A DNA stretch of 64,000 nt from Natrinema ejinorense (GTDB lineage: Archaea; Halobacteriota; Halobacteria; Halobacteriales; Natrialbaceae): assembly GCF_002494345.1 (NCBI RefSeq), contig NZ_NXNI01000001.1:3472001-3536000 (forward strand), read 5' to 3'. This document shows, one piece after another, positions 39,878 through 40,301 of this stretch (its first letter is position 1; every line of letters begins with the position of its first letter). Both the position numbers and the translations under genes were made by a program. The notes below the pieces were generated by a model that saw only the letters and a list, made by a program, of their open reading frames with translations, ran no database searches and was not told the DNA's origin.

Positions 39878-39931
39878 ACTGCCCGGAGTCGATCGTCCGC
39901 CGTCGCTGCTCGTGAGTTGCGCGCAGCGACA

Positions 39932-40121
39932 TGCGAGGGTTGGGATTCGAACCACGCCCGAGAACCTGCTCGCGCTGCTCGCAGAACCTCGGTCTGATTC
40001 GAATCCCGCGTCTCGTACTCGTCACTCGCGGATGCTCGTGACGAGTGCGAGGGTTGGGATTTGAACTACCGCAAGACGGTCGCTCACTCCGTTCGCCCTG
40101 CGTCTTGCGTCGTTCAAATCC
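39932..40121. repeat. Two extra copies of the tRNA-Leu 3' end, each in a hairpin
   Basis: The 3' end of the tRNA-Leu gene (minus strand; plus reads tgcgagggttgggatt) recurs at 39932-39953 and 40046-40066 in addition to the true gene at 40161. The 5' flank gagttgcgcgcagcga is also shared by the first and true copies. Each extra copy is followed by its inverse: GGGATTCGAA at 39942 pairs with TTCGAATCCC at 39998, and GGATTTGAAC at 40057 pairs with GTTCAAATCC at 40112, the latter extended by CGCAAGACG/CGTCTTGCG. A further 14-bp stem with one mismatch lies at 40012-40051. These look like integration scars or tRNA-derived palindromic elements. Confidence 0.75.
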
Positions 40122-40160
40122 AAGAACGCAGTCGCTGCTTGCGAGTTGCGCGCAGCGATA

Positions 40161-40244
40161 TGCGAGGGTTGGGATTTGAACCCAAGGACTCCTACGAGAG
40201 CGGGTCTTAAGCCCACCGCCGTTGGCCTGCTTGGCTACCCTCGC
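40161..40244 (-). tRNA. trnL: tRNA-Leu (anticodon UAA)
   Basis: The minus strand folds as a cloverleaf: acceptor GCGAGGG/CCCTCGC, a D-arm, anticodon stem GTGGG/CCCGC around the loop CTTAAGA (anticodon TAA), a long class II variable arm, and T-arm TTGGG/CCCAA around TTCAAAT. Discriminator A is at 40161. The length without CCA is 84 nt. No intron was seen. The 3' end is repeated twice downstream, as expected for a gene used as an attachment site. Confidence 0.95.
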
Positions 40245-40301
40245 ACAGAAGTGCACTCGAGGATTGGCCCGGAGTCGGGATGTGCGTTTCGATTCGTACC
40301 C

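Follow-up and report, generated by a model that had tools for sequence, protein, structure and literature searches.

Tandem gene-less palindromic units with copies of the tRNA T-arm downstream of a haloarchaeal tRNA-Leu(UAA) gene

The stretch of DNA analysed here (64,000 nucleotides from Natrinema ejinorense; hereafter the window) contains a single tRNA gene as detected by ARAGORN, a tRNA-Leu(UAA) gene that is followed on its own strand (minus) by two tandem units of 115 bp (40160-40046) and 114 bp (40045-39932). In the tRNA sense each unit opens with one hairpin (hp1), which is followed by the T-loop and the 3' strand of the T-stem in inverse orientation (the inverse copy, or inverse arm); after another hairpin (hp2) it closes with T54 to the discriminator base in the orientation of the tRNA (the direct copy). 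The inverse copy thus precedes its direct copy. The components of the array are as follows.

40160-40245, minus strand: intact tRNA-Leu(UAA) gene, anchor of the array (ARAGORN; Rfam RF00005 match at 40161-40244, 50.1 bits)
40132-40160, minus strand: unit 1, hp1 hairpin TATCGCTGCGCGCAACTCGCAAGCAGCGA (predicted stem fold)
40112-40123, minus strand: unit 1, T-loop and T-stem 3' strand in inverse orientation, TTGGATTTGAAC (inverted-pair detection; offset 37)
40066-40111, minus strand: unit 1, hp2 hairpin of type A, GACGCAAGACGCAG..GCGACCGTCTTGCGGTAG (folding and comparison of relatives)
40046-40065, minus strand: unit 1, T54-to-discriminator segment of the tRNA in direct orientation, TTCAAATCCCAACCCTCGCA (exact match)
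40018-40045, minus strand: unit 2, hp1 hairpin of the CTCGTC type (folding and comparison of relatives)
39998-40007, minus strand: unit 2, inverse T-arm copy GGGATTCGAA (inverted-pair detection)
39952-39997, minus strand: unit 2, hp2 hairpin of type B, CCGAGGTTCTGC..GCAGGTTCTCGG (type-B core found in 99 haloarchaeal stretches)
39932-39951, minus strand: unit 2, tRNA 3' end in direct orientation (first 14 nt with a single mismatch to the tRNA)
39902-39931, minus strand: trailing hp1-type hairpin after the last direct copy (within 56 nt that are 91% identical to the start of unit 1)

An earlier note, made from the letters of this region, had described a tRNA-Leu(UAA) 3' end recurring about every 115 bases, each extra copy paired with its inverse, and both observations were borne out: the copies lie at 40046 and 39932, with spacings of 114 and 115 bp, and two inverse pairs of 13 nt, each 92% complementary, join 39942-39954 with 39995-40007 and 40057-40069 with 40109-40121. 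The flank that it reported as a 16-base duplication is indeed duplicated, with a length of 56 nt at 91% identity (39898-39953 versus 40127-40182). Relative to shuffled sequences the array region folds with z = -7.8 (0 of 100 shuffles equally good), and for single units folded as DNA the z-scores lie between -4.5 and -5.0 for the tRNA strand, compared with roughly -3.5 for its complement. Two identities were rejected. Rfam matches beyond the tRNA were at chance level only, leaving no assignment to a known RNA family, and degenerate whole tRNA genes, which the note had named as an outcome that would count against its reading, were found neither in the window nor in relatives, where the units carry the same partial 3' ends and no cloverleafs.

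The same layout is present beside other tRNA genes of the genome, where the note had proposed to look for it. A T-arm hairpin pattern returned 27 strand matches (0 for the reversed control), and the matches found on both strands sit downstream of tRNA genes. A direct copy of the gene's own 3' end occurs downstream of 17 of the 44 tRNA genes (2% expected from shuffles) and an inverse copy downstream of 12 (3.5% expected), while hp1-type hairpins, as judged by eye, are generally absent behind the tRNA genes that lack units, apart from a few remnants. Elsewhere in this genome, two identical tandem tRNA-Asp genes are followed by units with a common hp1 and differing hp2 (L025:1353-1950). The core pattern was detected in all 61 related haloarchaea searched, with nearly no control matches, and is hardly present outside the haloarchaeal order; a stricter pattern gave 1-24 copies in nearly all sampled haloarchaea and 0-2, near the control level, elsewhere in the phylum. 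Because the layout recurs at other tRNA genes and in dozens of independent assemblies, the array is neither a product of chance nor an assembly fault.

An exact search for the type-B hp2 core in 84,980 species genomes recovered 105 copies in 99 stretches, whose titles, where shown, were all haloarchaeal. Ninety-eight of these copies lie <1.5 kb from a detected tRNA gene, every one of them downstream and on the same strand, and when intron-containing tRNAs are allowed 103 of the 105 follow a same-strand tRNA gene, for 15 amino acids in total. The 15 kinds of tRNA have little in common beyond the T-loop. The type-A hp2 core likewise occurs behind Leu-UAG, Gly, Phe and Ile tRNA genes. Units measure 114-128 bp, and a nested insert can bring them to as much as 184 bp; at four same-genus tRNA-Leu loci (L071, L079, L082 and L087) a second palindrome of ~60 bp, GGTTCGGAAGGTGC..GAGACGGC.., lies inside hp2 and would give a branched hairpin.

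The arms of each unit follow the tRNA behind which it stands. Among type-B units the mean number of mismatches between the direct copy and the tRNA of the same locus is 1.9 of 20 nt, compared with 7.25 ± 0.17 when the tRNAs are shuffled, and the copy is exact over all 20 nt in 45 of 103 units. The inverse arm differs at 2.19 of 12 positions, against 3.54 ± 0.09 for shuffled tRNAs (0 of 100 shuffles <3.30). Deviations of the direct copy at positions 57, 59, 62, 63 and 64 are matched in the inverse arm above expectation (e.g., 16 vs 6.1 and 33 vs 14.7), and pairing between the arms declines at positions 64-65, where the T-stem ends. Inverse copying does not as a rule extend over the whole acceptor stem (4.26 vs 4.33 mismatches), and it does so in some same-genus Leu-UAA units (TGCGAG..). 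With an inverse arm that tracks the T-arm of each tRNA and a family that extends across the order, the earlier suggestion of an undescribed tRNA-derived palindromic element is upheld; a limited literature search found no relevant mention of the haloarchaeal family or of such tRNA repeats.

Mobility of the units between close relatives is well supported. Comparison of the Leu-UAA locus across 28 genomes of the genus, as the note had advised, revealed zero, one or two units, some of them decayed, and between an empty (G008) and an occupied (G004) site, which have the tRNA and the downstream flank in common, the difference is one precise unit of ~115 bp. Two genomes of one species possess an identical tRNA-Ser(UGA) gene and a homologous flank with a different unit between them, and units behind Glu-UUC and Arg-UCU are present in only one of two conspecific genomes. 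The empty and occupied sites, together with the differing conspecific units, indicate a non-autonomous palindromic cassette that is exchanged within the T-loop. Modules are also reshuffled. At Leu-UAA within one genus, three hp1 types and two hp2 types are found in all six possible pairings, and the lone Leu-UAA unit of G103 is a composite whose left half is that of unit 1 and whose right half is that of unit 2, with the seam at the inverse T-loop. Eleven type-B units from several tRNA families have an extra T-loop C that their own tRNA lacks, which implies that the unit takes a portion of the T-loop with it and that the crossover lies inside the T-loop. Inversion of hp2 between cores was ruled out by the fixed orientation (98/98). 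As a point on the other side, changes in tandem number at one locus could be explained by simple homologous or slippage recombination.

The breakpoints of the units fall within the T-loop core TTCRAAT. A 7-nt core between inverted arms is the usual geometry of a tyrosine-recombinase core, and the T-loop fits this description. The reading that we favour, with a probability of roughly 0.55, is that the array represents two copies of a gene-less palindromic cassette recombined at the T-loop by a tyrosine recombinase encoded elsewhere; an enzyme of this class would most likely be what drives the haloarchaeal units in general. A recombinase of host or viral origin would recombine the 7-nt T-loop, a crossover core between the inverted T-stem arms, with its identical counterpart in the cassette, whereby the tRNA would be kept intact and the displaced 3' end would become the distal direct copy. 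The inverse arm may allow one strand to form a hairpin that exposes a second, reversed core, much like folded attC sites, and hairpin-templated correction could keep this arm matched to each tRNA. Tandem units would then result from repeated insertion or from core-to-core crossover. No benefit of the cassette to the cell is apparent from the sequences.

Attachment sites of archaeal elements are known from tRNA 3' ends, many of them with direct copies running from the T-loop to the 3' end (PMC8371274), and this likeness raises the alternative that the arrays are scars of repeated integration and excision by ordinary viruses or plasmids, with the hairpins as remnants of attP arms. A T-arm palindrome adjoining the integrase gene of bacterial proviruses is in keeping with such an origin. 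Such scars are, however, hard to reconcile with an hp1 and hp2 conserved across the order behind 15 kinds of tRNA, with the uniform unit size, with copies that have no virus or plasmid genes between them, and with the lack of the type-B core in IMG/VR, and the alternative is judged distinctly unlikely. Like integrative elements at tRNA att sites, the units have a direct repeat at the far end and leave an intact tRNA, as the exact copies and the empty and occupied sites illustrate; at their small size they carry no integrase gene of their own.

Near-perfect tRNA T-arm palindromes were found in six bacterial proviral contigs of IMG/VR (L199, L204, L207, L208, L213 and L216), and in all of these except L216 an ORF for a tyrosine integrase lies 56-63 bp downstream of the palindrome (in L208 it matches PF00589 with E = 1.5e-20). 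The position beside the integrase suggests that the palindrome probably marks a real attachment site in these proviruses, which lends some support to the recombinase reading of the haloarchaeal units. Some Bifidobacterium prophages integrate in tRNA-Met with 39-bp att sites (PMC6109161), and L208 may be such a prophage. As in the haloarchaeal units, the order in the proviral palindromes (compare bifidobacterial Bl-1, PMC6109161) is an inverse T-arm, a hairpin, and a direct T-arm that continues into the acceptor strand, though they form a site of 50-60 bp adjoining a tyrosine integrase rather than a tandem gene-less unit, and the resemblance is one of structure only. The earlier note had doubted that integration and excision could yield the inverse copies. 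That doubt was justified for the simple version of the process; setting att biology against the inverse copies was not, since the two are probably combined in the five proviruses and direct and inverse copies also occur together at E. coli tyrT. As a whole, its interpretation is partly supported.

The survey of haloarchaeal integrases, which covered general PF00589 positions in this genome, found no integrase beside the units: there are 11 matches, mostly tens of kb or more distant, and the nearest match found is about 9 kb from a tRNA-Arg unit. No haloviral contig in IMG/VR carries the type-B core, and a viral origin by sequence was rejected, with the 23 generic matches falling to bacteria, to tRNA clusters of phages or to chance. 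Excised or circular units were not seen either, and double-stranded DNA would be strained as a substrate if closed into a circle of 115 bp. All of these are points against the recombinase model.

The units could instead be functional small RNAs, an archaeal counterpart of RtT, that are released from the primary transcript of the tRNA gene by cleavage at each copied 3' end and retained for regulation. Their invariable position directly downstream and on the tRNA strand, their stable folds, and a layout as in E. coli RtT, a processed RNA with a connection to the stringent response (PMC4986893), are what this explanation would predict. The composition and the history of the units speak against it. 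A selected RNA helix is expected to tolerate G.U and to avoid A.C. The mismatches in the T-arm stem are 51 G.T against 48 A.C, both equally rare, and those in hp1 17 against 28; selection on RNA is not supported by these counts, which show no G.U excess; the GT excess in hp2 is uninformative because of a fixed internal loop. The units are moreover patchy, decaying and replaced between strains, to the extent that the set of tRNA genes bearing them differs between two conspecific genomes, and a regulatory RNA therefore seems rather unlikely.

On the tRNA-sense strand most hairpins end in a C(GNA)G triloop, accompanied by tandem G.A pairs. Such loops are unusually stable in DNA, and the pattern is an indirect, sequence-based pointer to a role as single-stranded DNA; the cassette probably acts at the DNA level, on the tRNA-sense strand. 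The same asymmetry, with G.A pairs and GNA triloops on one strand, would suit transposition of single-stranded DNA by a Y1/HUH transposase that recognises the hairpins, as for REP/BIME and RAYT, with the T-loop as target, and the pairing of the hairpins and the nested palindromes of some units would fit as well. REP elements are scattered, whereas 103 of the 105 type-B copies stand directly behind tRNA genes, and the duplicated 20 nt far exceed the length of a Y1 target, making transposition of this kind very improbable. With REP/BIME and MITEs the units nevertheless have in common that they are short, gene-less mosaics of modules with paired palindromes; they differ in their confinement to tRNA 3' ends, their fixed orientation and their tRNA-specific arms, and are not dispersed through intergenic regions.

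The tyrosine-recombinase reading finds a further parallel in integron attC sites and gene-less cassettes, which are also folded imperfect palindromes with a core near the foot and are arrayed in tandem at one locus. About a third of the type-B units have an extra base in the direct arm (31 units, e.g., L096, L108, L116 and L120; 8 in the inverse arm), recalling the extrahelical bases of attC. The comparison is an analogy only, as no integron integrase, attI or cassette ORF was seen with the haloarchaeal units and their core is the T-loop.

The closest known arrangement is the tyrT repeat of E. coli, which has been known since the 1970s and is unexplained. There too, tandem units follow a tRNA gene and each ends in a direct copy from the T-loop to the 3' end. 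The 178-bp repeats (L217:605-1163) each contain an inverse T-stem copy, GGGGAAGGAT, that pairs with ATCCTTCCCC, and within a unit this inverse copy comes first, GNA-triloop hairpins follow and the direct copy AATCCTTCCCCCACCACCA stands last; the inner hairpins have the CGAGC..GCGAG motif in common with the haloarchaeal units. The outer stem of the Rfam RtT structure is the same, being formed by the inverse T-stem copy, and the haloarchaeal inverse arms likewise match their own tRNAs. The E. coli units differ in length (178 bp vs ~115 bp), in an encoded CCA and in being bacterial, and no order-wide family on many tRNAs is known for RtT, unlike the haloarchaeal units. The tyrT transcript is the precursor of the processed RtT RNA (PMC4986893), and relatives of RtT overlap BIMEs (PMC2965389). 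The RtT model RF00391 had no match near the array even with E values up to 1 admitted, and 12 related loci and the whole genome were likewise negative, while among 14 controls E. coli alone was positive (134-138 bits); the haloarchaeal units are thus not RtT by sequence, though the layout is the same.

It is possible that the haloarchaeal units and RtT belong to one unrecognised mechanistic class. A broader and tentative proposal, which we hold to be somewhat less probable than its negation, is that the units are order-wide gene-less minimal mobile elements in which the crossover takes place at the T-loop and a reversed copy of the T-arm is rewritten to fit each new host tRNA, and that the E. 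coli tyrT/RtT repeats and the proviral T-arm palindromes fall into the same class. If true, a common mechanism would explain the origin of RtT. The haloarchaeal family turns the oddity at tyrT into a testable class. Haloarchaeal tRNA genes bear a fast-changing layer of palindromic cassettes, and the units offer a small natural substrate for studying tRNA genes as recombination sites and a means to ask how the arms of a palindrome remain matched. The tandem arrangement can extend beyond two copies, as behind the tRNA-Lys(UUU) gene of Haladaptatus sp. DYF46 (L160:2764-3150), where three consecutive 111-bp units are nearly identical, apparently through a very recent amplification.
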